DNA of 64,000 bases, taken from NCBI RefSeq assembly GCF_001601825.1, contig NZ_LUJK01000001.1:62001-126000 (forward strand), in the 5' to 3' direction. Each line of letters opens with the position of its first letter. Position 1 is the first letter of the stretch. The DNA comes from Limnobacter sp. CACIAM 66H1 (GTDB taxonomy: Bacteria; Pseudomonadota; Gammaproteobacteria; Burkholderiales; Burkholderiaceae_B). The notes beneath the pieces were generated by a model. The model saw nothing but the letters and a program-made list of their open reading frames with translations. It searched no databases and was not told the origin of the DNA. Shown here piece by piece: positions 327-60,711 of this stretch. Both the position numbers and the translations under genes were made by a program.

Positions 327-329
327 GGC

Positions 330-1049: not shown

Positions 1050-1079
1050 TTCAATAAACCTCGCTTAAATTCAATGTTC

Positions 1080-27480: not shown

Positions 27481-28332
27481 ATGATGTTCAGCAGTACAAA
27501 ACAATCGATTGGTAAAAAGTCCCCGCTCGGGGTTTTCTTGGGCAGTGTCTTGCTGGTGAGCAATTTCTTCGCCAGCCCGGTTCTTTCAGCACCCGCCGAG
27601 CTTGGCGCAGTCAAAGGCGATTTGACCGGCGGTGATCCACTGGGTTCCATGCAGTGGCCCGACATGAAAGGTCAGTTCTTCGATGCGGACGCAAAAACCG
27701 TGTTTGATTCCCGCATCAAGGTCACAGTGCCCTTGTTTGCCGAAGATGCCATGAATGTGCCCGTGTCATTTGATGCTTCTGCCTTGGGCAAGGTAAAAAA
27801 AATCGTGGTGCTGGTGGACAGAAACCCGATTCGAAAAGTGCTGGAGTTCATTCCCGAGAAAGCCAAACCTGCCTTGAATTTCCGGTTCAAGCTGGAGCAA
27901 GCCAGCCCCATTCGCGTTGCAGCCCTGACTGAAGACGGCGTGTGGCATGTGGGCTATGCGTTTATTGAAGCGGCTGGCGGCGGGTGTACTGTGCCTGGCG
28001 CAACGCGGGCCGATGGCAGTTGGCCCCAAACCTTGAACAAAGTGGCTGGGAAAATGTTTGATGCCAACCAGTTGCGCGATGACGCACGTCTGCGTGTGCA
28101 GGTGTCGCACCCGATGGACACAGGTTTGGTGGCTGGTGTACCCGCTTTTTACATCGAAGAGATGATTCTGCAGGACAAGAACAAACAAGTGCTGGCCAAG
28201 CTATACCCATTTGAACCCGTATCGGAGAACCCTTTGTTCTCGTTTGATTTTGACAAAAAACCGGTGGGCCCGATCAGTTTGGTAGGGCGCGACAACAATG
28301 GCAACCGGATTGATGCAAAGGTTACCCAATGA
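27481..28332 (+). CDS. Quinoprotein dehydrogenase-associated SoxYZ-like carrier
   Basis: The 283-residue exported protein (signal peptide to about residue 37) fuses a SoxY-like half (about 60-165) and a SoxZ-like half (about 185-283, VQVSHPMDTGLVAGVPAFYIEEM). The SoxY-type swinging-arm Cys appears internally as AAGGGCTVPG. Such fused proteins are known beside PQQ dehydrogenases and are thought to relay a covalently bound intermediate, not sulfur. It overlaps the next gene as ATGA and is preceded by AGGAG and a sigma-54 promoter. Confidence 0.88.
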   Translation: MMFSSTKQSIGKKSPLGVFLGSVLLVSNFFASPVLSAPAELGAVKGDLTGGDPLGSMQWPDMKGQFFDADAKTVFDSRIKVTVPLFAEDAMNVPVSFDASALGKVKKIVVLVDRNPIRKVLEFIPEKAKPALNFRFKLEQASPIRVAALTEDGVWHVGYAFIEAAGGGCTVPGATRADGSWPQTLNKVAGKMFDANQLRDDARLRVQVSHPMDTGLVAGVPAFYIEEMILQDKNKQVLAKLYPFEPVSENPLFSFDFDKKPVGPISLVGRDNNGNRIDAKVTQ

Positions 28333-29315: not shown

Positions 29316-29343
29316 GAAAAATCATCAGGGTTAACGCTGTACC

Positions 29344-29420
29344 AAGTGTGTCAAAAAGGGACAGTTTGTGTGTTGCTGAACAGGTGCGCTGTTGCAATGT
29401 CACAAAACTGTCTCTTTTTT
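29344..29420 (+). repeat. Long imperfect inverted repeat before exaA
   Basis: AAAAAGGGACAGTTTGTG pairs with CACAAAACTGTCTCTTTTT, ending in a T-run. It may terminate the upstream operon. Its arms are also two opposed activator-type repeats, the right arm being the exact TGTCACAAAACTGTC. The rest of the 29316-29615 gap holds an AT-rich stretch and the exaA promoter. Confidence 0.65.
29398..29412 (+). promoter_or_regulatory. Repeat TGTCACAAAACTGTC, copy 2
   Basis: This exact copy lies about 105 bp upstream of the exaA sigma-54 promoter, the right distance for an enhancer. It is preceded by CTGTTGCAATGT, as near copy 1. Confidence 0.65.
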
Positions 29421-29516
29421 TGTTGATCGCGGTGAAGGAAATCACTCAAATGAGGGTGTTTTCTTAAAGTACTGATTTTATTGAATAAAAAATTTATTTA
29501 GATGAATTATTCTACT

Positions 29517-29531
29517 TGGCATGAAGCTTGC
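29517..29531 (+). promoter_or_regulatory. Sigma-54 promoter of exaA-like gene
   Basis: TGGCATGAAGCTTGC matches the -24/-12 consensus with exact spacing, about 85 bp before the start codon. The AT-rich stretch between it and the repeat could hold an IHF bend. Confidence 0.85.
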
Positions 29532-29615
29532 GCTAGGTTGTCACTGGGTAGCCCCGACTCTGCAAACGAGGGGCGAGAACCTCAAAGTAACGGATGAAGA
29601 GAGGAGAAACAAATA

Positions 29616-31361
29616 ATGCGCAAAACTCTGCTTAGCGCGATGGTAGCAACCGCACTGGCGATTCCCGCAGTGGCTTCGGCCGCTGTGACAGACGCAATGA
29701 TTCAAAACGATGCCAAATCCACAGGCGACGTGTTGTCCTGGGGTATTGGTACAGAGGGTCAGCGTTACAGCCCATTGAAAGACATCAACGTATCGAACAT
29801 TGGCAAGCTGGTTCCAGCCTGGTCATTCTCGTTCGGCGGTGAAAAGCAGCGTGGTCAGGAAAGCCAGCCGCTGATTCACAACGGCAAGATGTTTGTCACC
29901 GGTTCCTATTCACGCATTTACGCACTGGACGCTGCCACAGGTGAAAAGCTGTGGAAGTACGAACACCGTCTGCCAGAAGGCATTATGCCTTGCTGCGACG
30001 TGGTGAACCGCGGTGCCGCCTTGTATGACAACCTGGTTATTTTCTCGACACTGGATGCCCAGTTGATCGCTCTGGACCAGAACACCGGTAAGGTGGTTTG
30101 GAAGGACAAGATTGACGACTACGCCGCTGGTTATTCCAACACTGCTGCACCCATCATCGCCAATGGTTTGGTGTTGACAGGCGTATCTGGTGGTGAATTT
30201 GGTGTGGTAGGCCGCGTTGAGGCCCGCAATGCCAAGACCGGTGAAATGGTATGGCTGCGTCCAACCGTTGAAGGTCACATGGGTTACGTGTGGGACAAAG
30301 ACGGTAACAAGAAGGAAGCTGGTATTTCCGGTACCACGAATGCCACCTGGAAAGGCGACATGTGGAAAACCGGTGGTGCAGCAACCTGGCTGGGCGGTAC
30401 ATACGACAGCAAGACTGGCTTGGCCTACTTCGGTACTGGTAACCCAGCTCCCTGGAACAGCCACCTGCGCCCCGGCGACAACCTGTATTCCACATCCACA
30501 GTGGCAATCGATGTAAAAACCGGCCAGATCAAGTGGCACTACCAGTCCACACCGAACGACGGTTGGGACTACGACGGTGTGAACGAGTTCGTGACCTTCG
30601 ACATGAATGGCAAGCGTGTTGGCGCCAAGGCTGACCGCAACGGCTTCATGTACATCAATGACGCTGCAACCGGCAAGCTGGAAAACGCCTTCCCATTCGT
30701 GAAGAAGATCACATGGGCCAAGGGCATCGACATGAAGACAGGTCGTCCGATTTTCGATCCAGCCAACCGTCCTGGCGATCCTACTGCCAAAGATGGCAAG
30801 AAGGGTGAGGTTGTATTCTCTGCACCATCTTTCCTGGGTGGCAAGAACCAGCAACCCATGGCTTACAGCCCTGACACAGGTCTGTTCTATGTTCCTGCCA
30901 ACGAGTGGGGCATGGAAATCTGGAACGAGCCAATCACTTACAAGAAAGGTGCTGCTTACCTGGGCGCTGGTTTCACCATCAAGACATTGCCTGGCTTTGA
31001 CTACATCGGCGCCCTGCGTGCGATGAACCCCAAGACTGGCAAGATCGAATGGGAAATCACCAACAATGCGCCTCTGTGGGGTGGTGTTCTGACCACTGGC
31101 GGTAACCTGGTGTTCTGGGGTACTCCAGAAGGCTTCCTGAAGGCGGCTGATGCCAAGACCGGTAAGGAAGTATGGAAGTTCCAGACTGGCTCCGGCGTGG
31201 TTGCACCTCCCGTGACCTGGAAAGGCAAAGACGGTCAGCAGTACGTGGCTGTTGTGTCTGGTTGGGGCGGCGCTGTTCCCCTGTGGGGCGGTGACGTAGC
31301 CAGCAAGGTGAACTACCTTGAACAAGGTGGCTCCGTGTGGGTATTCAAGCTGATGAAGTAA
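29616..31361 (+). CDS. exaA: Quinoprotein ethanol dehydrogenase (ExaA-like)
   Basis: This 581-residue periplasmic PQQ enzyme closely follows Pseudomonas ExaA throughout, for example [20 protein letters not shown] and [20 protein letters not shown]. The signal peptide ends near ASA; the vicinal Cys pair is [10 protein letters not shown]; the catalytic Asp is in [13 protein letters not shown]. Lys two positions after that Asp argues against lanthanide dependence, so calcium is expected. It oxidises primary alcohols to aldehydes and reduces a cytochrome c-550, here most likely PedF. RBS GAGAGGAG and a sigma-54 promoter precede it. Confidence 0.96.
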
Positions 31362-33036: not shown

Positions 33037-33867
33037 TTACTGGTTTAGGGGTACTGCCGCGCCGCTTTGCGAAAACTTCCAGGTGGCCACACTGAGCATG
33101 ATCACGGTTGCGCCAATGAGCACCAAAGTGGCAAACATCAAGCCAAATTCTGCGTGGCTGCTGAACGCATGTCGCAGCAAGTCGACACAGTAAGAAAATG
33201 GATTGAGCAAGGCTACCCAACGTGCCAGGGCCGGCATGGGTTCGATGGGGTATAAGGCACCGCTGAAAAAGAACACCGGGAAAATCACGAAGTTCATCAT
33301 GACGGCAAAGCCGTCAATACTCTTGGCAAAGGTGCCACACAGTACACCCAAGGCCGCGCACGCCAAAGCTGCCAAGGCGGCGCCAGGCAGCAGTACATGT
33401 AACTCAGGCCACAAGGTACGACCAACCCATGGCAGTACGTCTTGTAAATCAAAGCCCAAGGGAAACAGAAGGGTGTACAGGCCTTCAAGCGCGAGTAGCA
33501 AGGTGATCAGCAAGCCCATTTGAACCAGCGCACCTATTGCGGCCCCGAGGGTTTTTGCAATCAGGATGTGGTGTGTTTTGACAGGGGCGGTCACCAGCAG
33601 GCGCATGGTGCCGGCGTCTTTGTCCAGCGCAATGCTCAGGCCACCCACCATGCCGCCAAACAGCAGTGTCATGCCCACAATGCCGGGTAGCAAACGTGCG
33701 GTGTAGTCACCGCCGGCCAAAGCTTGCATGCCGCCACCGATGATCCACAACCACAGCACAGGGCGCACCATGGCTGCTGCAAGGCGATCTCGTTGCTTCA
33801 ACAGCTTTTGGCTTTCGCGGCGTATTACAGCCCAGTAAAAATGCATCAACATCTCAGTGGGCTCCAC
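33037..33867 (-). CDS. pedC: ABC transporter permease, PedC type
   Basis: The 276-residue ABC-2 type permease has six helices (MTLLFGGMVGGLSIALD; MGLLITLLLALEGLYTLLF; VMMNFVIFPVFFFSGALYPI). It matches the permease family found with PQQ-dependent alcohol dehydrogenase systems (PedC). It overlaps the ATPase gene by 14 bp and ends the pqq operon. Its substrate is unknown; export of PQQ or a pathway product are the usual suggestions. Confidence 0.87.
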   Translation of the reverse strand: MEPTEMLMHFYWAVIRRESQKLLKQRDRLAAAMVRPVLWLWIIGGGMQALAGGDYTARLLPGIVGMTLLFGGMVGGLSIALDKDAGTMRLLVTAPVKTHHILIAKTLGAAIGALVQMGLLITLLLALEGLYTLLFPLGFDLQDVLPWVGRTLWPELHVLLPGAALAALACAALGVLCGTFAKSIDGFAVMMNFVIFPVFFFSGALYPIEPMPALARWVALLNPFSYCVDLLRHAFSSHAEFGLMFATLVLIGATVIMLSVATWKFSQSGAAVPLNQ

Positions 33868-34687
33868 CGTTCATTTTCCAGACAAACCAGTCCGCCAGGG
33901 TGGCTGTGCGCACGCTGGTGACGCTTTGGTCGGGCAATTCATCCAGCGCTTGTGCAGGTGTGCCCAGCCAATTCAATTCACCTTGGTGAAGAAAACCGAC
34001 CCGGTCGCAACTGTTGGCTTCGTCCATCAAATGCGTCGCAATGAAAATAGTCAGTCCGTCAATCGCCTGCAGGGTCTTCAAGGTTTGCCACACGCTGTTT
34101 TTGGACGGCACGTCCAGCGCAGTGGTGGGTTCGTCGAGAATAAGAACGCCGGGTTTGTGCACCATGGCGCGTGCAATATCCACCAGCCTTTTTTGCCCGC
34201 CAGACAAACTTCCCACCGTGCGGTGTAACCAGGGCTGGATCGGGAAAATGCTGTACAAGTGTGCCAGGTTTGCTTTGGCCTGCGTTTTGTTCAAACCTTG
34301 CAGGCCCGCTGCAAACAGCAGGTTTTCCTCCACGGTCATGAAGCGGTCCAGTGATACCGATTGAAAGACAAAGCCCAGGTTTTTGCGGGCCAGGTCGGCG
34401 GCCCTGCGGGTGCTGTAACCCAGCACCGAGAGCTCGCCCTGGTCGGGAGTGATCAGGCCTGCGATCAGGCTGATGAGCGTGGTTTTACCGGCACCATTGG
34501 GCCCGAGCAGGCCGAACATTTCGCCTGAATTCAAATCAAGGCTGACATTGCTCAGTGCCCGCCGTTCTCCCCAAGAGAAGCACAAGCCCTGTGCGTGCAG
34601 GCGGATGGTGGTGTCGATTGCGGTGTTGGTGGTGTTCAAGTGCCGTTTTTGCTGAGGTGCAAGCTGTTGTGATCGCTGCGATACCAT
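33854..34687 (-). CDS. ABC transporter ATPase of the PQQ alcohol dehydrogenase system
   Basis: The 277-residue ATP-binding subunit shows Walker A GPNGAGKTT, signature LSGGQKRL, Walker B VLILDEPT and a switch His (IATHLMDEA). It pairs with the PedC-type permease. The ATG at 34687 lies 52 bp inside pqqE; a TTG at 34639 that overlaps the pqqE stop as TTGA is an alternative, giving 261 residues. Co-transcription with pqqABCDE links it to PQQ handling. Confidence 0.9.
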   Translation of the reverse strand: MVSQRSQQLAPQQKRHLNTTNTAIDTTIRLHAQGLCFSWGERRALSNVSLDLNSGEMFGLLGPNGAGKTTLISLIAGLITPDQGELSVLGYSTRRAADLARKNLGFVFQSVSLDRFMTVEENLLFAAGLQGLNKTQAKANLAHLYSIFPIQPWLHRTVGSLSGGQKRLVDIARAMVHKPGVLILDEPTTALDVPSKNSVWQTLKTLQAIDGLTIFIATHLMDEANSCDRVGFLHQGELNWLGTPAQALDELPDQSVTSVRTATLADWFVWKMNGGAH

Positions 34688-35832
34688 ACCACGGGCACCT
34701 CGGTGGTATTGGCCAATGCTTGCTGTTCAGGCTTCTGAACCTTCAGGTAATCGTTGGGATTGTCGCGACGCTGCGCCGCATCAACGAAGGCGATTACTTT
34801 GTCATGATCAGGTGATTTGTGGCATACCGGGTCGGCGCTGGTGGCGTCGCCTGTGATCAGGTAGGCCTGGCACCTGCAACCGCCGTAATCTTTGGCCTTG
34901 TCGGGGCAGGTTCTGCAGGGGTCCTTCATCCACGCATCGCCACGGTAACGGGTGAATCCATCGCTCTCGTACCAAATGTGTTCAACCGTGCTGGTTTTTA
35001 CATTTGGAAATTCAAAGCCGGGCAGCATGCGTGCGGCCTGGCAGGGCAAAGCGGTGCCGTCGGGGCTGATGCTGAGAAATACATTGCCCCATCCGCTCAT
35101 GCAGGGCTTGGGGGTTTTCTCGAAATAATCGGGCACCACGAACAACAATTTCATGCGGTTGCCCAACTTCTCGCGCCACACGGCTACGCGTTCTTCGGCG
35201 TGTTTTAACTGTTCATGGGTCGGAATCAGGGCAGCCTTGTTTTTAAATGCCCAGCCGTAATACTGGGTATTCGCCAGCTCCAGGTATTCAACGCCCAGTT
35301 TGACAGCCAACTCAATAATTGAATCAATGTGGTCGAGATTCAAACGATGGAGTACCACGTTCAACACCATGGGCCAACCGGCCGCTTTCACAGCGCTTGC
35401 AATTTCCAGTTTCTTGGCAAATGTTTTTGTATCACTCAGTGCATCATTTGCGGCCTGGGTTGCATCTTGAAAACTCACCTGGATGTGGTCGAGGCCAGCG
35501 GCTTTCAGGGCATCAAGCCGTGCGGGTTTCAGGCCGATGCCTGAGGTGATCAAGTTGGTGTAGTAGCCCAGTTCATGGCCATAGGCCACCAACTCTTCGA
35601 GGTCGTCTCGAAGCAAAGGCTCACCACCGGAAAAACCCAATTGAACTGCACCCAGCGCACGGGCCTGCTTCATGGTGTCTTTCCACTCGGCAGTGCTCAA
35701 TTCATGCGTGTTGGTCTTGTAATCAACCGGGTTGTAGCAGAACACACAATGCAGCGGGCAGCGGTAAGTCAGTTCAGCCAATAGCCAAAGTGGGCCAGCG
35801 GGGCGAGTGTTGGTTGAACTCACGCCTGTCAT
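34636..35832 (-). CDS. pqqE: PQQ biosynthesis radical SAM protein PqqE
   Basis: The 398-residue radical SAM enzyme has the CxxxCxxC cluster motif CPLHCVFCYNP near 29-36 and SPASM-type C-terminal cysteines (CMSGWGN, LPCQAARM, CRTCPDKAKDYGGCRCQ). It forms the carbon-carbon bond between Glu and Tyr of PqqA, the first step of PQQ synthesis. The start overlaps the pqqD stop as ATGA. Confidence 0.97.
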   Translation of the reverse strand: MTGVSSTNTRPAGPLWLLAELTYRCPLHCVFCYNPVDYKTNTHELSTAEWKDTMKQARALGAVQLGFSGGEPLLRDDLEELVAYGHELGYYTNLITSGIGLKPARLDALKAAGLDHIQVSFQDATQAANDALSDTKTFAKKLEIASAVKAAGWPMVLNVVLHRLNLDHIDSIIELAVKLGVEYLELANTQYYGWAFKNKAALIPTHEQLKHAEERVAVWREKLGNRMKLLFVVPDYFEKTPKPCMSGWGNVFLSISPDGTALPCQAARMLPGFEFPNVKTSTVEHIWYESDGFTRYRGDAWMKDPCRTCPDKAKDYGGCRCQAYLITGDATSADPVCHKSPDHDKVIAFVDAAQRRDNPNDYLKVQKPEQQALANTTEVPVVWYRSDHNSLHLSKNGT

Positions 35833-36110
35833 GCTTCCAGCCAGTTTCGTCGAGTGGCCTCTTGCAGCATGCTTCGCACATCCGCTTCCAGTCCGCTTGC
35901 GTTGAATTTCGCTTCAAGCGCAGCGACAATATCGCTCACGGTGCGCGTACCGTCACACAGCAGCAAAATTTCACTGGCGGATTGGTTCAGCTTCACCATG
36001 CCCTCTGGGTAAAGTAACACATGGGTTTTCTGCGCCTCTTCGTATTGCAGGCGAAACAGGCGGTTCAGCTTTGGGCGCTCCGGTAGCGTTGGGTTTGTCT
36101 CTGTGTTCAT
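35829..36110 (-). CDS. pqqD: PQQ biosynthesis peptide chaperone PqqD
   Basis: The true start [14 protein letters not shown] gives 93 residues; the track ORF adds residues from within pqqC. It has the PqqD core [20 protein letters not shown] and [18 protein letters not shown]. PqqD binds the PqqA precursor peptide and presents it to PqqE. Both its start and stop overlap neighbours by ATGA, so pqqC, pqqD and pqqE are translated as a chain. Confidence 0.96.
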
Positions 36111-36832
36111 TGTTTTTTTCGTTTTGTTTTTGCTGGCTCGTTCGGATAAGCCAGTGCTATTGCATCTGACATGCTCCACAGCACATCCAGTTTAAATTGA
36201 AGAATTTCAAGCGCGCGCTCTTGTTGCGCACGGGTCTTGAAATAATTCAAAGTCACTTCCAGTCCATGTTCGACGTCGCGTTGCGCCAGGCTGATTCGTG
36301 AGCGAAAATAATTCAGTCCTTCGGCGGCAACCCATTTGTAATCTTTGGGCCAATTGCTCAGGCGCTGTTTGTGAATTTCAGGGGCGAACATCTCGGTCAG
36401 CGACGAGCACACCGCCTCTTGCCATGGCGCACGGCGCGCGAAATTCACGTAGGCGTCCACCGCAAAACGGACACCTGGCAACACCAGTTGCTGGCTCCAC
36501 AGTACATCCCTCTCAATGCCCACCGCTTCGCCCAGGCGGCTCCATGCCTCTATACCACCGGCATTGCCCTCCCAACCATCGTGGTCAAGAATACGTTGTA
36601 CCCAACGGCGGCGGGTTTCACGGTCGTCGCAGTTGGCCATCACAGCGGCGTCTTTTTGCGGAATGCAAACCTGGTAATAAAAGCGGTTGGCCACCCAACC
36701 ACGCAATTGTTCACGGCTTAATTTGCCTTCACGCATGGCCACATTGAAAGGGTGGTGTATGTGGTAGCGGTCGCCTTTGGCACGCAGACGTTCTTCGAAC
36801 TCTTTTTTACTCCACGCCTTGTTGCTGCTCAT
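36107..36832 (-). CDS. pqqC: Pyrroloquinoline-quinone synthase PqqC
   Basis: This 241-residue all-helical oxidase closes the rings and performs the final oxidation of PQQ. Family sequence is dense: [58 protein letters not shown]. The start overlaps the pqqB stop as ATGA. The lysine-rich tail (AKTKRKKQ) is ordinary variation. Confidence 0.97.
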
Positions 36833-37761
36833 GCAAGAATCTCCATGCCGTCATAAGACACTTCAATTCCATTGTCGGCCAGAATGGCGCGTTCGTCGCC
36901 ATGCTCGTACAAAATCGGGTTGGTGTTGTTGATGTGAATCAGGATTTTGCGCTGGTGCTCGAATTGGCGAAGCTGACTGATCATGCCTGAACCACGCTTG
37001 CCTGGTTTGTCGGTTTGCGGCAGGTGGCCCATATCGGCTGCCATTTTTGTTGAGAAACCCTGTGTGACCATTTCGTCTTCGGTCCAGAACGTGCCGTCCA
37101 CCATCAACACGTCAGCTTGTTGCATGTAGGGCAGAATATCGGGCGTAATTTCTCCGAGGCCCGGCGCATAAAAAACCTTCTTGCCCGTGTTGATGTCTTC
37201 GATCAGCAAGCCAATGTTGTCGCCACGGCGTTGCGCATATCGGTTCGGCGAATAGGGCGGCGCTTTGCTGATCAATGGAATTGATTTGATCTTGATGCTG
37301 TCCATCGGGCTGATGGTGAGGGGGTCGTCGCATTCGGTACACAAAGGTGTCCATTTCACGCCGCAATAAAATCCCAAAGTGGGTACCAAGGGCAAACCAT
37401 TGGTGAGGTCTTCCCACACTGCGGGAGTGGTGTAAAGGCGCATGGGTATTTTGCCTTCACGCATCATCAACAGGCCAGTGGTGTGGTCAAATTGCGCGTC
37501 CATCAAAATGACGGCAGAAATACCGGTGTCGCGTGGTCCTCTATTGGGTTGTAACTCTGGGGTATTTTTGATTTGCGCAAGAATATCGGGCGACGCGTTC
37601 ACGAGAATCCAGTTGGCCGACCCGTCCGATATGGCAATCGACGACTGGGTGCGCGCAGTGTATCCAGGCGCTCTGGCCCTGACAGCTTGGCAGTTGTTGC
37701 AGTTACAGTTCCATTGTGGGAACCCTCCGCCTGCTGCGGAACCCAGAACTTTGATTTTCAT
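36829..37761 (-). CDS. pqqB: PQQ biosynthesis protein PqqB
   Basis: The 310-residue metallo-beta-lactamase-fold protein has N-terminal [18 protein letters not shown], the PqqB hallmark, and metal-site stretches [24 protein letters not shown] and HINNTNPIL. It hydroxylates the Tyr moiety of the cross-linked intermediate in current models. It follows pqqA after a hairpin that may limit readthrough. Confidence 0.97.
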
Positions 37762-42287: not shown

Positions 42288-42385
42288 CCTTTTGATGAAA
42301 AGTAGCACAGATCGAACGCTGAAGCCATAGAGTTCGCCATATGTCACAATTGGTAAAACTAATTCACAAATCCGAACGGATAGGG

Positions 42386-42400
42386 TGGCATGGGGATTGC
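42386..42400 (+). promoter_or_regulatory. Sigma-54 promoter of pedF
   Basis: TGGCATGGGGATTGC is essentially consensus with exact GG-N10-GC spacing, 46 bp before the pedF start. Confidence 0.9.
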
Positions 42401-42445
42401 AACGACTATCGCGTGTTGATCATTCTTAGAAATACAGGAGTTGTG

Positions 42446-42901
42446 ATGTTAGTTCGTAAAGCCCTAGTGGCAACCATTTTTTCAATTGCTGCCTCGGTGG
42501 CGATGGCCCATGGTGACGTAACCCCGCAGGTTGTGGATGTGTCCACCCTCAAGCCGCTGGGCGATGACATGCTGGAAACCAATCCCTACACCGGCGACAA
42601 GGAAGCAATTCGCGTGGGTAGCTCTGCATACAACCAGAACTGTGCGCGCTGTCATGGCCTTGAGGCAGTCAGTGGAGGCATTTCTCCCGACCTTCGCAAA
42701 ATGAACACCGAATGCGATTCCTTCGCGGGCAAAAAAGCCAAAGAACAATGCAAGGTGGAAATTGATACTTATTACCGCAACTCGGTGCTGGGTGGCAAGG
42801 TGCGTGGTGACAGGGTTTACATGCCAGCTTTCGCCGGCATTTTGAGCCAAGAGGCCATTTGGGCGATCAAGGCCTACGTCGAAACCCGCAAGTACGAGTA
42901 A
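42446..42901 (+). CDS. pedF: Cytochrome c-550 PedF
   Basis: The true start MLVRKALVATIF (AGGAG upstream) gives 151 residues; the track ORF adds the promoter region. After a signal peptide (to AMA) there is a single haem site CARCHGLEA and a C-terminal Met ligand region RVYMPAFAGIL. PedF-type cytochromes accept electrons from PQQ alcohol dehydrogenases. It is first in a two-gene unit with the binding protein. Confidence 0.93.
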   Translation: MLVRKALVATIFSIAASVAMAHGDVTPQVVDVSTLKPLGDDMLETNPYTGDKEAIRVGSSAYNQNCARCHGLEAVSGGISPDLRKMNTECDSFAGKKAKEQCKVEIDTYYRNSVLGGKVRGDRVYMPAFAGILSQEAIWAIKAYVETRKYE

Positions 42902-43015
42902 TCACTGGCGCGGCTCTACAGGGTGGGTCGGCGAACTGAGATGCCGCCCCCTCTGCCTTATCAAATATCTATTCAGAATAAAAGTGCATCCAAGGCACTA
43001 CCATCAGGAGACCTT

Positions 43016-43888
43016 ATGAATGCTTTCAATTCGAAGTGCAAATCCCCGTTGATTAAATGGTTGGGTGCAGTTGCGCTGGGCTTTTCAATTCAGTTCGGCG
43101 CGGCTGCCCAAGAACTTAGCGATTGGGCCAAAGTACAGGCCTCAGGCGTGCTGACTGTCGCCGTTTACAATTATTTGGCACCCTATTCTCACGAAGGCAA
43201 GGGGATTGACGTGGATATCGCCAAAGCCCTGGCGGCCAAGTTGGGCCTGGGTTTGCGGGTGCGTCCATTTACGGAAGATGAAGAGTTTTCGGATGACATC
43301 CGAAATATGGTGACCCGTGGCCACTACCTGGCCGGAGCGCCGGCAGATGTTTTGATGCACGCGCCAGTGGATGCGTACATCATGCAGAAAGAAGATCAGG
43401 CGCTGTTCTTCTCTCCCTATACCCGGGACGATATTTTCGTGGCGCGTAACATCAAGAAGTTGCCCACGCTGGACAGCCTGAAACCTTTTTCAGAGGCCGG
43501 TAACAAGATAGGCGCCGAAGCGGCAGCCCTGCCCAGCATTATGTTGGCAGGGGCGGATGGTGCCGCTTATGCGGACAACCTTGTGAACTTCAAAACCCCG
43601 AAAGAGGCCGTGGATGCCATGGTCAATGGCGAACTGGTGGCTGTCATGGCGACCAAAGCCGAGCTGGAGTGGGCCTTGCACCAGCATCCAGACAAGAAGG
43701 CAGATTATTTCGTATCCAAAGTTCCGCACAATTCTCTGCCACCCAAAGGTTGGGCTGTGGGCATGGCCACCAAGAAAAGCAACAAGGAATTGGCTGAAAA
43801 ACTGACTGTGGCCATGAATGAGCTGAAGGAGAGTGGTGAGCTGGAGAAGATTTTCGCGAACTATGGCGTGAAGTACATGAGGCCATGA
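43016..43888 (+). CDS. Quinoprotein-associated periplasmic binding protein
   Basis: From MNAFNSKCKSPL the protein is 290 residues with a signal peptide and the solute-binding fold of the group always found beside quinoprotein alcohol dehydrogenases (LTVAVYNYLAPYSHEGKGID; PADVLMHAPVDAYI). No matching permease is encoded next to it. It may act as a periplasmic chaperone or relay and not in import. It follows pedF by 114 bp and ends in a terminator. Confidence 0.85.
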   Translation: MNAFNSKCKSPLIKWLGAVALGFSIQFGAAAQELSDWAKVQASGVLTVAVYNYLAPYSHEGKGIDVDIAKALAAKLGLGLRVRPFTEDEEFSDDIRNMVTRGHYLAGAPADVLMHAPVDAYIMQKEDQALFFSPYTRDDIFVARNIKKLPTLDSLKPFSEAGNKIGAEAAALPSIMLAGADGAAYADNLVNFKTPKEAVDAMVNGELVAVMATKAELEWALHQHPDKKADYFVSKVPHNSLPPKGWAVGMATKKSNKELAEKLTVAMNELKESGELEKIFANYGVKYMRP

Positions 43889-44644: not shown

Positions 44645-46492
44645 ATGGCATGGACCGGTAAAGTACTGCGCGTGAACCTGACTGCAGGCACCTGCACGAC
44701 CGAAGACTTGAGAATGGATTGGGCGAAAAGCTACCTTGGCCAGCGTGGTTTGGCTACCAAGTACTTCGTGGAAGAAGTGAATGCGAAAGTGGATCCACTT
44801 TCACCTGAGAACAAGATTATTTATGCAACTGGCCCGCTGACAGGCACCATGGCCTCCACTGGCGGCCGCTATTCAGTGATTACCAAAGGCCCATTGACAG
44901 GTGCAATCGCCTGCTCGAACTCAGGCGGCTACTTTGGCAATGAATTGAAGAGCGCTGGCTGGGATATGGTGATCATGGAAGGCAAGTCACCCAAGCCGGT
45001 GTACCTGCTGATCGAAAACGAAAATGCCAAGTTGATGGACGCTTCAGACCTGTGGGGCAAGAGCGTGTGGGACACCGAGCCTGCCATCAAAACAAAGCAC
45101 CAAGACCCGCTGATGCGTGTGTGTTCAATCGGCAAGGCTGGTGAAAACCAGGTGTTGTACGCCGCCATTGTGAACGACTTGCACCGTGCAGCTGGTCGCT
45201 CAGGCGTGGGTGCCGTCATGGGTTCCAAAAACGTCAAAGCGATTGCAGTGCGTGGTACCAAAGGCGTTGGCAACATTTCCAACCCCAAGGAGTTCATGAA
45301 GGTCACCTACGAGAAGAAAAAGATTCTCGCCGAGAATGCCGTGACTGGTACTGGCCTGCCCACCTATGGCACCCAGGTGTTGATGAACGTGATCAATGAA
45401 ATGGGTGCCATGCCCACCAACAACCACCGCGATGTTCAGTTCGATGGCGCCAAGGATATTTCCGGCGAAAAAATGCATGAACCCCGCAAAACAGACGGCA
45501 AGGCCAACCTGGTGACCAACCAGGCCTGTTTTGGTTGCACGATTGCTTGCGGTCGCATCTCCAAAATTGATGAAACCCACTTCACCGTGGAAAACAAGCC
45601 GCAGTACCATGGTGCGTCCGGCGGTCTGGAATACGAAGCTGCATGGGCCTTGGGATCATCAAACGGCGTGAACGACCTGGAAGCGCTCACTTACGTGAAC
45701 TTCCTGTGCAACGAACACGGCATTGATCCAATTTCTTTGGGTGCCACAGTGTCAGCCGTGATGGAATTGTATGAAATGGGTGTGTTGACCGAAGCGCAAC
45801 TGGGTTGCAAGGCCCCGTTTGGTTCAGCCGAGGCGCTGGTGAAATTGAGTGAAGACACCTGCAACGGCGTTGGTTTCGGCGTGGAAATTGGCCAGGGCTC
45901 CAAGCGCCTGACTGCCAAATATGGCCACCCCGAATTGTCGATGAGCGTAAAGGGTCAGGAATTCCCGGCCTACGACTCTCGCGGTATTCAGGGTATGGGT
46001 TTGGCGTATGCCACTTCCAACCGCGGTGCCTGCCACTTGCGTGGTTACACCGTAGCATCGGAAGTGCTGGGTATTCCGGTTAAAACCGACCCATTGACCA
46101 CCGACGGCAAGCCCGCTTTGGTCAAGGCGTTTCAGGATGCTACCGCTGTGTTTGACTCAGCCGGTATTTGCGTGTTCACCAGCTTTGCCTGGACACTGGC
46201 TGACGTGCAGCCTCAGGTGGCTGCTGCCTGTGGGGACGAGTTCGACATGGCCAATCTTGAAACCATGGGTGAGCGCATCTGGAACATGGAGCGCCAGTTC
46301 AACCTGGAAGCCGGTTTCACCAAAGCCGATGACGATCTCCCCGCACGTTTGAAGAAAGACGCCGCGAAAGTGGGGCCCGCCAAAGGCTTGGTCAACGGCA
46401 TCGACAAAATGCTGCCTGAGTACTTCGAGCTGCGTGGCTGGGACACCGAGGGTCGCCCAACGGCTGCAACACTGGAGCGCTTGGGGCTATGA
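44645..46492 (+). CDS. aorB: Tungsten-dependent aldehyde oxidoreductase, catalytic subunit
   Basis: The 615-residue subunit has the AOR N-terminal domain that binds the bis-pyranopterin cofactor (GPLTGTMASTGGRYSVITKG, then CSNSGGYFGNELKSAGWD), and iron-sulfur ligands CFGCTIAC with a late Cys in GICVFTS. These enzymes oxidise aldehydes, including aromatic ones, to acids, and the Aromatoleum type also uses hydrogen or runs in reverse. Tungsten is assumed from family. GGGAG precedes the start. Confidence 0.94.
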   Translation: MAWTGKVLRVNLTAGTCTTEDLRMDWAKSYLGQRGLATKYFVEEVNAKVDPLSPENKIIYATGPLTGTMASTGGRYSVITKGPLTGAIACSNSGGYFGNELKSAGWDMVIMEGKSPKPVYLLIENENAKLMDASDLWGKSVWDTEPAIKTKHQDPLMRVCSIGKAGENQVLYAAIVNDLHRAAGRSGVGAVMGSKNVKAIAVRGTKGVGNISNPKEFMKVTYEKKKILAENAVTGTGLPTYGTQVLMNVINEMGAMPTNNHRDVQFDGAKDISGEKMHEPRKTDGKANLVTNQACFGCTIACGRISKIDETHFTVENKPQYHGASGGLEYEAAWALGSSNGVNDLEALTYVNFLCNEHGIDPISLGATVSAVMELYEMGVLTEAQLGCKAPFGSAEALVKLSEDTCNGVGFGVEIGQGSKRLTAKYGHPELSMSVKGQEFPAYDSRGIQGMGLAYATSNRGACHLRGYTVASEVLGIPVKTDPLTTDGKPALVKAFQDATAVFDSAGICVFTSFAWTLADVQPQVAAACGDEFDMANLETMGERIWNMERQFNLEAGFTKADDDLPARLKKDAAKVGPAKGLVNGIDKMLPEYFELRGWDTEGRPTAATLERLGL

Positions 46493-54346: not shown

Positions 54347-54376
54347 GAATTGAATTTCTTGTTTGAACAGTCACAA

Positions 54377-54400
54377 TGTGCACCAGAAAAGGTGTGCACA
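54377..54400. promoter_or_regulatory. Palindrome between kinase and TonB receptor
   Basis: TGTGCACC-AGAAAA-GGTGTGCACA is an almost perfect inverted repeat in the divergent gap. It is a possible operator, for example for the neighbouring response regulator. Confidence 0.45.
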
Positions 54401-54447
54401 GAAGGGGGAGAATACTTTTCGGGAAAACTTCCCTGTCGGGATGTGGC

Positions 54448-54467
54448 AATGTTATCGATCATTATCA
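54448..54467 (+). promoter_or_regulatory. Fur-box-like site upstream of the TonB receptor
   Basis: AATGTTATCGATCATTATCA keeps the GATCATTATC half of the Fur consensus. Iron control of the downstream receptor is plausible. Confidence 0.45.
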
Positions 54468-54563
54468 AAACAAGTCGCGCGCTTGCCTGGCCAATCTCCA
54501 TGGCGCGCAGAGCAGGTCATTCGCGCGACTACACAATTAAAAATCAAGATCAAAGGGCTATGT

Positions 54564-57047
54564 ATGTTTGTGCGTCAACGGTCGTATCAGTGCATCCGTG
54601 TTGTTGCACTTTCCTCTCTGTTTACTGTTGCGCCAGTGTTGGCGCAGCAATTGGAAGAAATTGAAGTCATTTCCTCCACGCCCCTGCCTGGGGCTGTCCT
54701 GCCTGTTGATCAAGCGCCTTTCAGTGTGAAAAAGCTCAATTCTCCCGAGCAGAATTCCAGCAGGGAGTCGATCAGCCGCAGTCTTTTTCGTGGCATCAGC
54801 GGTGTTCAGGTGACTGACAACCAGGGCAATCCGTATCAATCTGATGTGACTTATCGAGGCTTTTCGGTGACACCTTTGTTGGGAACGCCGCCGGGTTTGT
54901 CTGTTTACGTAGATGGCGTTCGGCAAAATGAAACGTTCGGCGATGTAGTGCGGTTTGATGCCATACCCCAGTCTGCCCTGAAGGAGCTTACTGTACTGCC
55001 CGGTACCATGCCGCAATTTGGTTTGAATTCGCTGGGCGGTGCCATTGTGATGCAAACCAAAAGCGGTCGGGATTTCCAGGGCACGCAGCTGGATGCAGAG
55101 CTGGGTGACTTTGGACGAACTCGATTGGGTTTGCAGAAAGGTTGGGTGGATGAGTCCAAGCAGCGTGATTTTTATCTGAACATCAATTCCTTCAATGAAG
55201 ATGGTTGGCGCGTCCTCTCGCCCAGTTCTGTTCTTCAACTGTTTGGCAAAATGGGGATCGTTTCTGGCGATACCCAGACCAATTTCAGCCTTGCGTTGTA
55301 TGAGTCTGACTTGAACGGCAATGGCGTGGTGCCTCGCAGTTTTTACGAACAGAATCGCGCCCAGTCGTACACCTATTTTGACAACACTCAAAATACGGGT
55401 GGGCAGTTTGCGGTGGACTTCACGCGCTACTTGCAAAGCGGAGCCGAGTTGACGGCAAACGCTTATTACCGAAGTTCAAGGTCGGTCACATTCAATGGCG
55501 ATGGTAACGAAAACGAAGACTACCGATTCGGTGTGGCCGAGTTCGAACCTGACCGCGCTGAAGTGGAAGGCAATCTGGGGCCGGGTACTTACAACGTGAC
55601 TTGCAGTGCACCAGCCTCTAACGCTTACGCGCCGGGCTCGGTGACTTTTGATGAAAACGACCCTGCTGCCATGGAACCTGACAGCGCAGACTGCCCAGGG
55701 GCCAATAACCGTGGCGTGCTGAATCAGGATGTGGTTGGGGTGGGCTTGCAGTATGCCTTGGCACCCATCGGGGCGCACAAGGTGTTGTTGGGTACTCAGC
55801 TTGAATTCGGGAAATCCGATTTTCGTCGCAGCTATGCCTTGGGCGTGTTCAACAATGATCGCACGGTGCGAGAATTGTACGCACCGATTGAGCAGGTCAA
55901 TGTGGAGGCGAACAACCGACAATTCGGTGTATATGCCCAGGACGTGTGGACTTTGAATGACAAAACCACCTTGCTGGTGGGCGGTCGATACAACCACGCC
56001 TCGGTCAAAACCACAGACCGTTTAAGCCCGGTGTTGATCAACGAGGAGGGCGAGGCCAGTCCCGGGCTGAACAATGACTACACCTATCGGCGCTTCAACC
56101 CCTCAGTTGGAATTTCTTATCAGACCGCCAAGCACAGCACCTGGTTTGCCAGTGCGGGCACCAGCAATCGGGTGCCGACTCCGGTTGAGCTGGCTTGTTC
56201 TGACCCTGAGTTTCCATGCCTGTTACCCAACGCCATGGCAGCGGACCCGTTTCTCGAGCAGGTCATTACCTCGACTGTCGAGGGTGGCTACCGCACCCGC
56301 TGGATCAGTGGTGGCAACGAGTATGGTTTTTCATTCAACGTGTTTCGGGCCAACAACAAAAACGACATTCTGTTTGTTACTGATGGCGCAGGATCGGGAG
56401 GGTTCTTCCAGAACTTCGGAAAAACCCGTCGGCAGGGGATTGAACTTGATTTCGATTGGGAAACGTCTGTATGGAATCTGGATGCCAGTTACCAATACCT
56501 GAATGCAACGTTTCAAAGCCCGGCACGTTTGGCCAGCGAGGGCAACAGCAGTGCTGTGGATTTGAATGGTGATCCAGCGGTGGAGGGTGGTTTCATCCAG
56601 GTGCAACCAGGCAACAAAATTCCGGGTTTGGCCGAGCACAATGTGAAGTTGTCATTGGGATACAAGGCCAGCAACTCCACCACCGTATTTGTGGACATGC
56701 AGGCGCAAAGCGAGCAATACGCGAGAGGCAACGAGAACAACCAGCATCAGGCGGGTATCGTGAACATTCCGGGAGAAGGGCCGGTGGAGTTCAAGGACAA
56801 TGGTCGAGTCCCCGGTTTTGCAGTGTTCAATTTGGGCGTGAATCACGCCTTGAGCAAAAGTGTCACCCTGATCGCGCGCGTGAACAATGTGTTTGATCGT
56901 GAATACTTCAATGGCGCTTTGCTGGGAGGAAATATTTTCGACCGCAATGGTTCTTTGGTGGACGATGAAGATGACATCACTTATGAATCATTTCTCGCGC
57001 CAGGTACCCCCCGAAATGCGTGGGTGGGAGTCAGTCTGAAGTTCTAG
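54564..57047 (+). CDS. TonB-dependent receptor of unknown ligand
   Basis: From MFVRQRSYQCIRVVA the protein is 827 residues; AAAGGG lies upstream and the longer track start crosses the promoter. A signal peptide (to VLAQ) is followed by a plug (SISRSLFRGISGVQVTDNQG; GLSVYVDGVRQNETFGDVVR; QFGLNSLGGAIVMQTKSGRD) and a barrel ending RNAWVGVSLKF. The plug differs from the siderophore group in this window. Receptors of this kind occur near quinoprotein genes in other bacteria, to my recollection, so a cofactor, metal or carbon ligand is possible. Confidence 0.85.
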   Translation: MFVRQRSYQCIRVVALSSLFTVAPVLAQQLEEIEVISSTPLPGAVLPVDQAPFSVKKLNSPEQNSSRESISRSLFRGISGVQVTDNQGNPYQSDVTYRGFSVTPLLGTPPGLSVYVDGVRQNETFGDVVRFDAIPQSALKELTVLPGTMPQFGLNSLGGAIVMQTKSGRDFQGTQLDAELGDFGRTRLGLQKGWVDESKQRDFYLNINSFNEDGWRVLSPSSVLQLFGKMGIVSGDTQTNFSLALYESDLNGNGVVPRSFYEQNRAQSYTYFDNTQNTGGQFAVDFTRYLQSGAELTANAYYRSSRSVTFNGDGNENEDYRFGVAEFEPDRAEVEGNLGPGTYNVTCSAPASNAYAPGSVTFDENDPAAMEPDSADCPGANNRGVLNQDVVGVGLQYALAPIGAHKVLLGTQLEFGKSDFRRSYALGVFNNDRTVRELYAPIEQVNVEANNRQFGVYAQDVWTLNDKTTLLVGGRYNHASVKTTDRLSPVLINEEGEASPGLNNDYTYRRFNPSVGISYQTAKHSTWFASAGTSNRVPTPVELACSDPEFPCLLPNAMAADPFLEQVITSTVEGGYRTRWISGGNEYGFSFNVFRANNKNDILFVTDGAGSGGFFQNFGKTRRQGIELDFDWETSVWNLDASYQYLNATFQSPARLASEGNSSAVDLNGDPAVEGGFIQVQPGNKIPGLAEHNVKLSLGYKASNSTTVFVDMQAQSEQYARGNENNQHQAGIVNIPGEGPVEFKDNGRVPGFAVFNLGVNHALSKSVTLIARVNNVFDREYFNGALLGGNIFDRNGSLVDDEDDITYESFLAPGTPRNAWVGVSLKF

Positions 57048-57113: not shown

Positions 57114-58130
57114 ATGTCTTTGAACGTTCGAAATTTTATCTTCGCAACTGCCTTGCTTTTGCTTGCACCGATTGCCCATTCCCAAGCGGGAGATTGCTGG
57201 CAACAACACCGTGCCACGGTGTATGAATGGACTTGTGCTGGCCAAAGCCTGCCCGCAGAGGGGCAGGATTTTGCACTGTCGATTGTGGTGGTTGATTCGC
57301 CCAAAGTCTTGATGGTGATTGATTCCGGCGCAACTGCCGCTGTGGGCGAAAGCGCAGCCGCAGCCATTCGTTCCAAATTCGGTACCAAGCCTGTGTGGGT
57401 TTTGAATACGCAACCCAAGCCTGAGCACGTGCTTGGCAATGTCGGTTTTCGGGCTGCATTTGCAAGCACACTTGCCCCGGGCGAGAATTTTTCAAGCCGT
57501 GTTGTGGCTGGCAAACGCACCGCTGATTTGATGCGCGAGCGCTGCCCCACCTGCATTGAAAACTTTTCCGAACGTATGGGCAGCGATTCTGTAAAAGGCA
57601 CTGAGTCACTGGTTCCAGGCCGTATTTTACGAACCAAAACAGGACACCTGGGTTTGTTGCACAATGATTGGGTGCCCTGGAAGTTTCGTTTGTACAAGGA
57701 TCTTGAAACCGAAGAAGCTTTGGTATTGCGCAATCAGGAACTGAAATTGTGGTGGGTAGGCTCGGCCGTTCAAAACAGGGATATTCCGGATCTGTACGAC
57801 GGCAATGTGGTGGAGCGAATCAATTTTTTAGGTCGCTTGAAGGCGCGAATGGGGGCAGATGATACGGTATTGACCTCATTTGGCGTGTTGGGCAGGGATT
57901 GGATAGAGCGCAACCTGAGCTACTTTGTGCGCGTTCAACAGGCTGTGTTGTACGGGCTGGAGGATGGTGTCAGCGAGGTGGAGCTGATTGAGCAGATCAG
58001 CTCGGATATTGGTGAGTTTAAAAACGCGGTTTACGTACAAACCGACCCCAAATTGAATGCCAAGGCGCTTGAAACACACCAATTGAATATTCAACGTATT
58101 TTCCGGCAAACAGAGCCGTTTGCTTTTTAG
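57114..58130 (+). CDS. Degenerate metallo-beta-lactamase-fold protein (pseudoenzyme)
   Basis: The 338-residue exported protein aligns by eye with quinoprotein relay metallohydrolases (VLMVIDSGATAAVGESAAAA; WVLNTQPKPEHVLGNVGFRA). The HxHxDH metal motif has become QPKPEH, keeping one His, and the later GHTD and SHG ligands are missing. Two vicinal-type Cys occur in ERCPTCIENF. It is probably a binding or structural protein. It follows the TonB receptor by 66 bp on the same strand and precedes the proton-channel operon. Confidence 0.75.
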   Translation: MSLNVRNFIFATALLLLAPIAHSQAGDCWQQHRATVYEWTCAGQSLPAEGQDFALSIVVVDSPKVLMVIDSGATAAVGESAAAAIRSKFGTKPVWVLNTQPKPEHVLGNVGFRAAFASTLAPGENFSSRVVAGKRTADLMRERCPTCIENFSERMGSDSVKGTESLVPGRILRTKTGHLGLLHNDWVPWKFRLYKDLETEEALVLRNQELKLWWVGSAVQNRDIPDLYDGNVVERINFLGRLKARMGADDTVLTSFGVLGRDWIERNLSYFVRVQQAVLYGLEDGVSEVELIEQISSDIGEFKNAVYVQTDPKLNAKALETHQLNIQRIFRQTEPFAF

Positions 58131-58217: not shown

Positions 58218-58868
58218 TTGACTACCAATAAAACACACACCCTGTTTTTACTGTGGGTGTTGCTGATCAGCCTTACCGGCTTTGGCCTTTACATGACTTG
58301 GCACAAAGGCCTTTTTCAGTGGATTATCCTGACCGACAACACACGCATTTGCGTGGTGATCGTATTCGCATTTGCGGTGGGCAGTGGCCTTGCGGGTTGG
58401 CGAAGTATTTATTTAAGTCGACAGTTTCGCTACTTTGACCAGATCCAAAGCGGGTTCACTGATTTCAAACTCGGGCAATCCATTTGTCATGATTACCTGA
58501 CTCACCCTTTGGCGCATCCCAGCGAAGGTCAGCTTATGGCCGAGGTGATGGCTGAACGCGCGCGTGGTTCTCACCAGGTGGGCTGGTTTGTCACTGGACT
58601 GATGATCAAGCTGGGTTTGTTGGGCACTGTGGTGGGTTTCATCATGATGCTCAGTAGCCTCGAAGGATTGGAGCAACTGGACATCTCCGATATTAAAACC
58701 TTGATGCAGCAAATGACACAGGGCATGGGCGTGGCCATGAACACCACCTTGGTGGGCTTGATTGGCAGCATTTTGTTGGGTGTGCAGTTTTTGATGCTGG
58801 ATCGCCACGCCGACAAGTTGATTGCGGCTACCGTGGATTACGCACACCGCAACGTGAAGGCGAGCTGA
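58218..58868 (+). CDS. MotA/TolQ/ExbB-type proton channel protein
   Basis: The best start is TTG 58218 (MTTNKTHTLFLLW) behind AAAGGGA, giving 216 residues; the track start is 15 codons earlier. Helices lie near 8-28, 34-58, 131-150 (MIKLGLLGTVVGFIMMLSSL) and 172-195 (GVAMNTTLVGLIGSILLGVQ), the TolQ/ExbB pattern with a short cytoplasmic loop. It should form a proton-driven stator pentamer. It is not near TonB or Tol genes but leads an operon with a D-in-membrane partner, a membrane protein and a lipoprotein. Confidence 0.82.
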   Translation: MTTNKTHTLFLLWVLLISLTGFGLYMTWHKGLFQWIILTDNTRICVVIVFAFAVGSGLAGWRSIYLSRQFRYFDQIQSGFTDFKLGQSICHDYLTHPLAHPSEGQLMAEVMAERARGSHQVGWFVTGLMIKLGLLGTVVGFIMMLSSLEGLEQLDISDIKTLMQQMTQGMGVAMNTTLVGLIGSILLGVQFLMLDRHADKLIAATVDYAHRNVKAS

Positions 58869-58873
58869 ACCGC

Positions 58874-59482
58874 ATGCCGCTTTTCAACCACAAGCCAGAC
58901 TTTGAGCTGGACCCGTTCACGGATTTGATTTTCAACGCCTTGTTGATTTTCACTTTCCTCTTTTTGATGGCCCTGTTGCTGTTGAACCCACCTGCCAAAA
59001 GCGGAATTATTGATCCCAAAGCGGAGTTTTTGGTGACTGTCAGTTGGCCAGACAATGACCCCAACGACATTGATGTTTGGGCAGCAGGACCCGCAGGTGC
59101 ACAAGTGTGGTTTATGCGTCCCCAAGACGGTTTGTTACACCTTGATCGCGATGACCGTGGCCTGGCCAACGACACACAGGAAATTGAGGGACAGGTGTTT
59201 GTGAACCCGCTGAATCAGGAAGTGCTCACAATACGTGGCCGCCCGCCGGGTGAATATATTGTCAACCTGCATTACTACAAAACTGAAAACAATGCCCCGG
59301 TGCCCGTGAATATTTATGTGGCCGAGGTGAACCCGAAATTGAAAGTGTTGCATTACTCGACGGTGAACCTGCAGCAGGAGGGTGATGAGGCCACAGCAGT
59401 CCGCTTCACGATCGATGCAAACGGCACGGTGAGCAACATCAATCAACTTGAAAAATCTTTGGTGAAGGCAGACGGAAAATGA
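58874..59482 (+). CDS. ExbD/MotB-like plug protein with YfaP/DUF2135-like domain
   Basis: The 202-residue protein has one N-terminal membrane helix (DPFTDLIFNALLIFTFLFLM) in which P-x-x-D matches the proton-carrying Asp motif of ExbD and MotB (PLVDVMLVLLIIF); here it is Asp17. The periplasmic part is a beta-sandwich (FLVTVSWPDNDPNDIDVWAA; LDRDDRG; RPPGEYIVNLHYYK) like DUF2135/YfaP and not the TolR or OmpA-type domain. The start is 5 bp after the channel gene. The domain pairing is unusual. Confidence 0.7.
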   Translation: MPLFNHKPDFELDPFTDLIFNALLIFTFLFLMALLLLNPPAKSGIIDPKAEFLVTVSWPDNDPNDIDVWAAGPAGAQVWFMRPQDGLLHLDRDDRGLANDTQEIEGQVFVNPLNQEVLTIRGRPPGEYIVNLHYYKTENNAPVPVNIYVAEVNPKLKVLHYSTVNLQQEGDEATAVRFTIDANGTVSNINQLEKSLVKADGK

Positions 59483-59994
59483 ATGAAGTTTTAGTAGGTT
59501 TGGGCATCGCCTATATATTTTTGGCCGCCTTGTTGCTGTTGGCCCTTGTTTATGGCCGAATGAACTGGACGGTCAAGCTGGTTCTGATTGTGGTGTCCGT
59601 GGGCTTTTATTGGGTCAGTTACATCAACTGGCAGAATGCACAGGGCTGGCCCAGCCAGGCTGATTTGCCGAAGCGGTTTTTGTTCTACGCCGTGGTGGTT
59701 GAAGAACCTGACAAGACAGAGGGCATCAAAGGGCGACTGTTCGTATGGGCCAGCGACCTGGCCAATGATCGGCCCTCGGATACGCCGCGTGCTTACGTGT
59801 TGCCCTACGACAAGGACTTGCATGTCAAGCTGGATGCAGCTCAGCGTCAGATGCGCAATGGCAATTTGCAAATAGGGGAAGTGGGCGGCGAATTGTTCGA
59901 TCCGCAGGCCACTCGTGACAATACGCGCATTGCAGACAAGAAAATTGATCTGGAATTCACGGATTTGCCCGACCCTCAGTTGCCGGAGAAGTAA
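59479..59994 (+). CDS. Membrane protein of the proton-channel operon
   Basis: The 171-residue protein has two N-terminal helices (about 4-24 and 32-50) and a soluble C-terminal part of about 115 residues with acidic tail DLPDPQLPEK. No known domain is visible. It overlaps the preceding gene by 4 bp (ATGA), which suggests a fixed complex. The soluble domain contains FYAVVVEEPDKTEGIKGRLF and YVLPYDKDLHVKLDAAQRQM; side of the membrane is uncertain. Confidence 0.6.
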   Translation: MNEVLVGLGIAYIFLAALLLLALVYGRMNWTVKLVLIVVSVGFYWVSYINWQNAQGWPSQADLPKRFLFYAVVVEEPDKTEGIKGRLFVWASDLANDRPSDTPRAYVLPYDKDLHVKLDAAQRQMRNGNLQIGEVGGELFDPQATRDNTRIADKKIDLEFTDLPDPQLPEK

Positions 59995-59997
59995 GCC

Positions 59998-60711
59998 ATG
60001 TTGAAAATTTTAAGTGTGGCCGTTTTAGCGCTGGGTCTGGCTGGCTGTTCCAAAGTGGGTGGGGGTGAATACTTTCCGCTGGATGAGGGGATGCAGTGGA
60101 ATTACAAACTCGATTTTGTGATGCCCGATGGCAAAAACAAAAAAGATTTGATGATCCGCAGCGTCGGGCAGTCCAGTTTCAAAACGGAGGACGATGAAAT
60201 CCAGGGTATTGTGCGTCGGACGTCAGACGGTACGGATTACTTCGTGCAAGAGCGTGATGACGGCTTTTACCGCGTTGGAAAGCGTGTGATTGTACAGACC
60301 AAACCGCAAGCGGATCCTTCTCCTCGCCTGATACTGCCCAAGGGGCGAAACCTGCGGGTTGGGTACACCTGGACCATGGATACCAGCCCCTACGTGATGC
60401 ACTGGATGCCGCCCTTCATTGAGGCCAATGCCAGTATTAAACCATTCGATTTGGTGTATGAAGTGGCCTCTTTGGATGACACGGTAGAAACACCTGCCGG
60501 TATTTTCGAGAAATGCGTTCGATTGGAGGCTACCGGCAAAATGGTTTTTTACGCCGATGCCAGTGCAGGCTATCAGGAAATCCTGATCAACCACAGCGAG
60601 TGGTATGCACCCGGTGTGGGTTTGGTGAAGCTGGAGCGCGATGAGCCTTTGGACACCAGCATCATGAAAGGGGGCAAGGTGACCATGGTGCTCAGCAGTT
60701 TTAGCCACTGA
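59998..60711 (+). CDS. Lipoprotein of the proton-channel operon
   Basis: The 237-residue protein has a lipobox LAGCS at 15-19, so it is a lipid-anchored envelope protein. The body is beta-rich (YFPLDEGMQWNYKLDFVMPD; GVGLVKLERDEP) and resembles generic surface or periplasmic lipoproteins with a LolA-like or TapB-like look, but I cannot name a family. It starts three bases after the previous stop with GGAGAAG upstream. A terminator follows directly, so it closes the operon. Confidence 0.65.
   Translation: MLKILSVAVLALGLAGCSKVGGGEYFPLDEGMQWNYKLDFVMPDGKNKKDLMIRSVGQSSFKTEDDEIQGIVRRTSDGTDYFVQERDDGFYRVGKRVIVQTKPQADPSPRLILPKGRNLRVGYTWTMDTSPYVMHWMPPFIEANASIKPFDLVYEVASLDDTVETPAGIFEKCVRLEATGKMVFYADASAGYQEILINHSEWYAPGVGLVKLERDEPLDTSIMKGGKVTMVLSSFSH

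Follow-up and report, generated by a model that had tools for sequence, protein, structure and literature searches.

Motors of the 5:2 group drive processes as varied as nutrient uptake, upkeep of the cell envelope, motility, gliding and phage defence, and a new plug domain on such a motor would imply a new job. In ExbBD-TonB, a MotA/TolQ/ExbB-type channel and a plug helix with a P-x-x-D motif work in a trans-envelope setting (PMC12905483). The same elements occur in an operon of Limnobacter sp. CACIAM 66H1 that lies within the 64,000-nucleotide stretch of DNA analysed here (the window); unlike ExbBD-TonB, it has a plug with a beta-sandwich where ExbD has its own fold, four predicted channel helices instead of the three of ExbB, a two-helix protein and a lipoprotein in addition, and no TonB. 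TolQRA-Pal resembles it in that channel, plug and lipoprotein are encoded together, whereas the lipoprotein here has no OmpA-like domain (it is not Pal), the plug domain is a different one, and TolA and TolB are missing. Searches of the four operon proteins against Pfam and NCBIfam gave no match to a TonB or TolA transducer. MotAB and PomAB share the four-helix channel, and MotA is the best match of the motor profile among solved structures (MotA 1.3e-3, TolQ 0.011 and ExbB 0.083 against the PDB), but here the plug is without an OmpA-like peptidoglycan domain, the cytoplasmic loop is short and there are no flagellar genes. ZorAB and GldLM are also 5:2 group members with special plug domains; the plug domain here differs from both, and neither ZorC/D/E nor type IX secretion genes accompany it.

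On sequence grounds, the motor belongs to the known 5:2 group, where it falls among those that PMC12505986 treats as diverse generic ion transporters. No published description of its plug domain, partners or context was found. The original prediction knew of no described system with this gene set, and none appears in the literature searched, mostly papers available without subscription; within that scope, no description of a motor connected with quinoproteins or lanthanides was found either. The motor family provides a testable link between proton power and lanthanide- or PQQ-based alcohol oxidation. To our knowledge, metal loading and PQQ export are open questions. How lanthanides cross the outer membrane of P. 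putida and similar organisms is likewise unsettled (PMC12997753). Operons of the type found in the window (type A below) are embedded in quinoprotein loci of the PedA1A2BC/XoxF kind (PMC6839425, PMC12997753), and the motor is unnamed both in a review of ped (PMC12997753) and in the lanthanome paper.

Organisation of the operon and its proteins

The operon and the genes directly before it are arranged as follows.

54363 to 57047, + strand: TonB-dependent receptor (PF00593, 8e-39), co-directional, 66 nt before the next gene
57114 to 58130, + strand: quinoprotein-relay metallohydrolase-like protein directly upstream of the motor (TIGR04558 3e-10, TIGR04559 4.5e-10, below cut-off)
58218 to 58868, + strand: motor subunit, four-helix MotA/TolQ/ExbB-type channel, 216 aa, TTG start
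58874 to 59482, + strand: plug, one transmembrane helix with P14-x-x-D17 followed by a beta-sandwich, 202 aa
59479 to 59994, + strand: two-helix membrane protein with a periplasmic domain and a conserved C-terminal tail, 171 aa
59998 to 60711, + strand: lipoprotein, probably outer-membrane, accessory of type A, 237 aa
60719 to 60738, + strand: terminator-like hairpin closing the operon, 6 GC pairs then TTTT

All four genes that had been claimed at 58218-60711 were located there. Their tight or overlapping spacing was also borne out, with successive distances of 5 nt, a 4-nt overlap (ATGA) and 3 nt, as was the closing terminator in the form of a hairpin whose 6-bp stem is all GC; terminator-like sites number 8 in the tally against 5.8 expected, so the hairpin match alone is weak. 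An AAGGG motif precedes the motor start at TTG 58218 by about 10 nt, and TTG 58173 is a possible alternative start. The metallohydrolase-like protein has a degenerate metal motif (NTQPKPEH) and is therefore probably no enzyme; its gene stands upstream of the motor in identical order in all Limnobacter loci, and the TonB-dependent receptor is kept upstream in L036-L040. Window positions 1-1793 carry canonical genes for ExbD, ExbB and TonB, so the genome also has an ordinary Ton motor. The operon is, as proposed, a separate unit, distinct from this Ton motor and from the other PF01618 proteins of the genome.

For the motor subunit, the proposal of a TolQ/ExbB-like channel agrees with the Pfam search, in which PF01618 scores 36.1 bits over its curated cut-off of 22.9 and covers positions 54-123 of 127. 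Hydropathy suggests two helices, a loop of cytoplasmic length and two further helices, and the polar threonines expected of the last two helices of MotA/TolQ/ExbB channels are present. Across 43 aligned homologues, phages included, D40, G133, G136 and T177 are invariant, while T137 and T176 are kept in more than 90% of the rows.

The AlphaFold model of the plug comprises a helix at 14-37 and a beta-sandwich at 52-190 (mean pLDDT 83.6). A DUF2135/YfaP-like beta-sandwich had been predicted; the sandwich stands in the model, but the kinship to DUF2135 is weak. The window plug has no Pfam match to PF09906 (DUF2135), PF09906 scores 22.3 bits, just over its cut-off of 22, within one homologous plug, and hhalign of the plug against a true DUF2135 protein gives a probability of 75.6 (E=2.4e-5). 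There is no Pfam match to ExbD/TolR at E<=1, and the modelled fold is a beta-sandwich rather than that of ExbD. Foldseek returned no PDB match for the model at E<=0.001 and, against a viral library, a few beta-rich matches of low identity that were uninformative. D65, D67, D93, D94, G96, E116 and R121 are invariant in 113 of 113 aligned plugs, phages included, and D91 is kept in 110 of them. Four of the seven invariant residues are Asp, and those of the sandwich could form a candidate metal site.

Loss of the membrane aspartate in homologues had been named beforehand as a point of refutation. The proposal largely withstands this check: D17 is kept in 104 of the 113 aligned plugs, those of phages among them. 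It is Ala or Val in one or two lineages, a loss that weighs against the motor reading. Nine distinct plugs, termed LFK, have Ala or Val at position 17 and Lys at position 21 in place of N21, and their motors share H119N and V/I121F, two substitutions that would fit a contact between plug and motor. A compensating acidic residue was sought in the motors paired with Asp-less plugs and none was found. That two lineages lost D17 by convergence, together with H119N and V121F in the motor, was also considered and set aside, a single origin not being rejected (p-AU 0.525). Asp-less plugs are encoded at L095, L098, L102, L110, L021, L024, L027, L028 and L030, and at L145 and L146.

The model of the two-helix protein (pLDDT 70.9) has helices at 2-25 and 30-54 and a small alpha/beta part at low confidence, with no match in the PDB; the family carries the consensus tail DLPDPxLPEK. 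The lipoprotein has the lipobox LAGC with an invariant Cys17, and it is probably located in the outer membrane because the +2 residue of the family is mostly other than Asp. It shows a sub-threshold DUF3108_like match and a profile match to the putative lipoprotein 4fvs (E=1.1e-3).

Distribution, four contexts and phage versions

Relatives of the plug are encoded at no fewer than 344 places in a species-level genome collection; they occur in 40 of 369 sampled genomes of the source organism's class and are rarer in the rest of the phylum. The Limnobacter loci L037, L039 and L040 encode plugs with 96-99% identity to that of the window, and plasmids gave distant Azospirillum matches only. When the gene set was sought in other genomes, as had been suggested, the motor, plug and two-helix genes were found to recur together across many proteobacteria. 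They always lie on one strand, with median gaps of 3 and 6 nt; motor and plug are co-directional in 115 of 115 cases, and the gap between them is -30 to 60 nt in 111 of the 115. The predicted four-gene system thus stands as a coherent and widely conserved unit, but only three of its genes make up the core, the lipoprotein being an accessory confined to one type.

This conserved core of channel, plug and two-helix gene, the last a member in every type, occurs in four contexts. Type A, that of the window, adds the lipoprotein and accounts for 48 rows in the plug tree. In type B (45 rows), the core is preceded by genes for an L,D-transpeptidase (YkuD) and a DUF302 lipoprotein and followed by one for a VWA-FHA membrane protein, often at a fixed chromosomal site adjoining tilS, accA, dnaE and rnhB (genes named by eye). 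Type C is the core without accessory genes, and phages carry the fourth version. The type labels cluster strongly on the plug tree, where A and B are each not one clean clade; as A and B were assigned from the accessory genes present in short loci, a few assignments may be wrong. One example of type B is L068:8112-12657, with YkuD, DUF302 and VWA-FHA genes flanking the core. The VWA-FHA protein has a single internal helix between its VWA and FHA parts.

Phage versions, like the quinoprotein association described below, had been overlooked in the original prediction. Plug relatives are present in IMG/VR contigs and in 23 Rhizobium/Sinorhizobium phage records, and the phage loci examined carry all three core genes, annotated as hypothetical in the phage records. 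Core loci with coordinates are listed here; others are L125 and L126 (phage) and L150 (prophage-like).

L116:4466-6117, phage core locus
L118:4453-6198, phage core locus
L120:4508-6064, phage core locus
L123:4426-5930, phage core locus
L124:4440-5947, phage core locus

In L118, L124, L125, L126 and the prophage-like L150, a gene for a trypsin-like peptidase lies next to the core or a short distance away. The phage plugs retain D17, and a search of PHROGs yielded nothing useful. The family points to phages that encode proton motors, and a phage-encoded proton motor appears to be undescribed. Since phages carry the core, its action is not quinoprotein-specific.

Association with PQQ-dependent oxidation

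The association with PQQ is the strongest clue to the function of the motor. The window itself contains a large PQQ alcohol-oxidation island (27481-47862).

27481 to 31361, + strand: SoxYZ-like relay carrier, relay metallohydrolase 1 and PQQ alcohol dehydrogenase (TIGR04557, TIGR04558 and TIGR03075 over cut-off)
33037 to 37761, - strand: PedC/PedB-like ABC genes, pqqE, pqqD, pqqC and pqqB (PqqE TIGR02109 over cut-off; TIGR03861 and TIGR03864 below; pqqB, pqqC and pqqD named by sequence reading)
42341 to 43888, + strand: cytochrome c-550 PedF (TIGR04494 over cut-off) and XoxJ-like periplasmic protein (weak TIGR03871)

Inspection by eye also placed a tungsten-type aldehyde oxidoreductase (44645-46492) and partner genes in the island.

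Across the 369 genomes of the class, PQQ alcohol dehydrogenase was scored by TIGR03075 at E<=1e-100. It is present in 8/8 type A genomes, 17/18 type B genomes, 2/14 other genomes with a plug and 36/329 genomes with none; the single type B genome that lacks it is 64% complete. Types A and B together give 25/26 against 38/343 for the remaining genomes (Fisher p=1.4e-20, for genomes only partly independent of one another), and counting by family gives 17/17 against about 24/165, the family total being approximate. Among the genomes of named loci, 14 of 15 are positive for PQQ dehydrogenase, many having been picked for the absence of local PQQ genes. Quinoprotein function does not depend on the motor, since 38 of the 63 PQQ-positive genomes are without types A and B; conversely, the core is present without PQQ in type C genomes and in phages.

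Gene neighbourhood adds to the co-occurrence. At least one PQQ-system marker lies within about 10 kb in 18 of the 25 type A loci with full flanks; overall, a marker accompanies 27/42 type A loci, the other 15 having none in the available flanks, and 9/38 type B loci, type B being mostly distant from PQQ genes. In L042 and L103, a PQQ-dehydrogenase-like gene is directly upstream of the motor on the same strand, and in the type B genomes of L158 and L159 a second copy with the lipoprotein is near a PQQ dehydrogenase. Homologues of PedA1, PedA2 and PedC, called by TIGR03863, TIGR03866 and TIGR03861, adjoin the operon in several type A lineages (L045, L058, L101, L106, L107, L112, L113 and L115). 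PedA1-like TIGR03863 is found in 6/8 type A genomes (p=2e-7); in type B, with 2/18, there is no association. PedA1A2BC is the lanthanide transporter of P. putida (PMC6839425). The link of types A and B to PQQ is shown by gene neighbourhood and by genome co-occurrence.

Proposed mechanism and alternatives

On balance, it seems probable that the operon encodes a 5:2-type motor separate from the known ones and recruited, in types A and B, for periplasmic quinoprotein oxidation. The three-gene core would be an inner-membrane motor of the 5:2 superfamily driven by proton-motive force, in which, judging from family signatures and conservation, five channel subunits may ring the helices of two plugs. 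The proton path would run through D17 of the plug and the conserved threonines of the channel, and the motion would reach the small two-helix partner as well as the periplasmic beta-sandwich of the plug. The reaching end in type A would be the lipoprotein, which is probably located on the outer membrane. The oxidation served in types A and B would be that of alcohols, PQQ-dependent and often lanthanide-dependent. Speculatively, the task may be an energised handling, at the cell envelope, of Ln3+/Ca2+ or PQQ alongside ABC transport of the PedA1A2BC type. Since P. putida takes up lanthanide through PedA1A2BC, the most economical guess for type A is a role in handling metal or cofactor. The presence of the core in phages means that what it basically does must be general and that the task is set by accessory proteins. 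The wider claim of a new proton-driven trans-envelope machine devoted to lanthanide/calcium or PQQ handling on behalf of periplasmic quinoprotein dehydrogenases, whose core phages also use on the host envelope, is tentative and may well not hold.

The genetic linkage of type B to L,D-transpeptidase, DUF302 lipoprotein and VWA-FHA membrane protein genes, the cores of phages, often with a trypsin-like protease, and the existence of type C without PQQ would all suit a general envelope-integrity motor for peptidoglycan or outer-membrane upkeep, with the PQQ link reflecting periplasmic aldehyde or redox stress instead of metal or cofactor handling. This is a rather unlikely possibility, as many lineages have type A within PQQ/Ped loci, even when their genomes contain a type B copy at another place. 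It is improbable that the motor takes over from TonB-ExbBD as the dedicated energiser of a TonB-dependent receptor for the import of a lanthanide or PQQ chelate: the operon has no TonB-like protein, a canonical TonB-ExbB-ExbD set is present in the same window and the receptor is not a constant neighbour, although methylotroph TonB receptors import lanthanide (PMC9301485) and the co-directional run in Limnobacter starts with a TonB receptor gene.

A Zorya-like anti-phage device was suggested by the best NCBIfam and PADLOC matches of the motor, which are ZorA models. These matches are far below their cut-offs (26 against 100 bits, others less), the plug has no ZorB match, nuclease and helicase partners are missing and the neighbours are metabolic, making such a device very improbable. 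A chance neighbourhood of unrelated membrane genes, which would be favoured by nothing but the hypothetical status of each protein, is refuted by conservation of the core across bacteria and phages and deserves next to no credence. Returning to the motor recruited for quinoprotein oxidation, VWA proteins of mxa clusters are said to help calcium insertion, and the VWA-FHA partner of type B recalls them as a lead.
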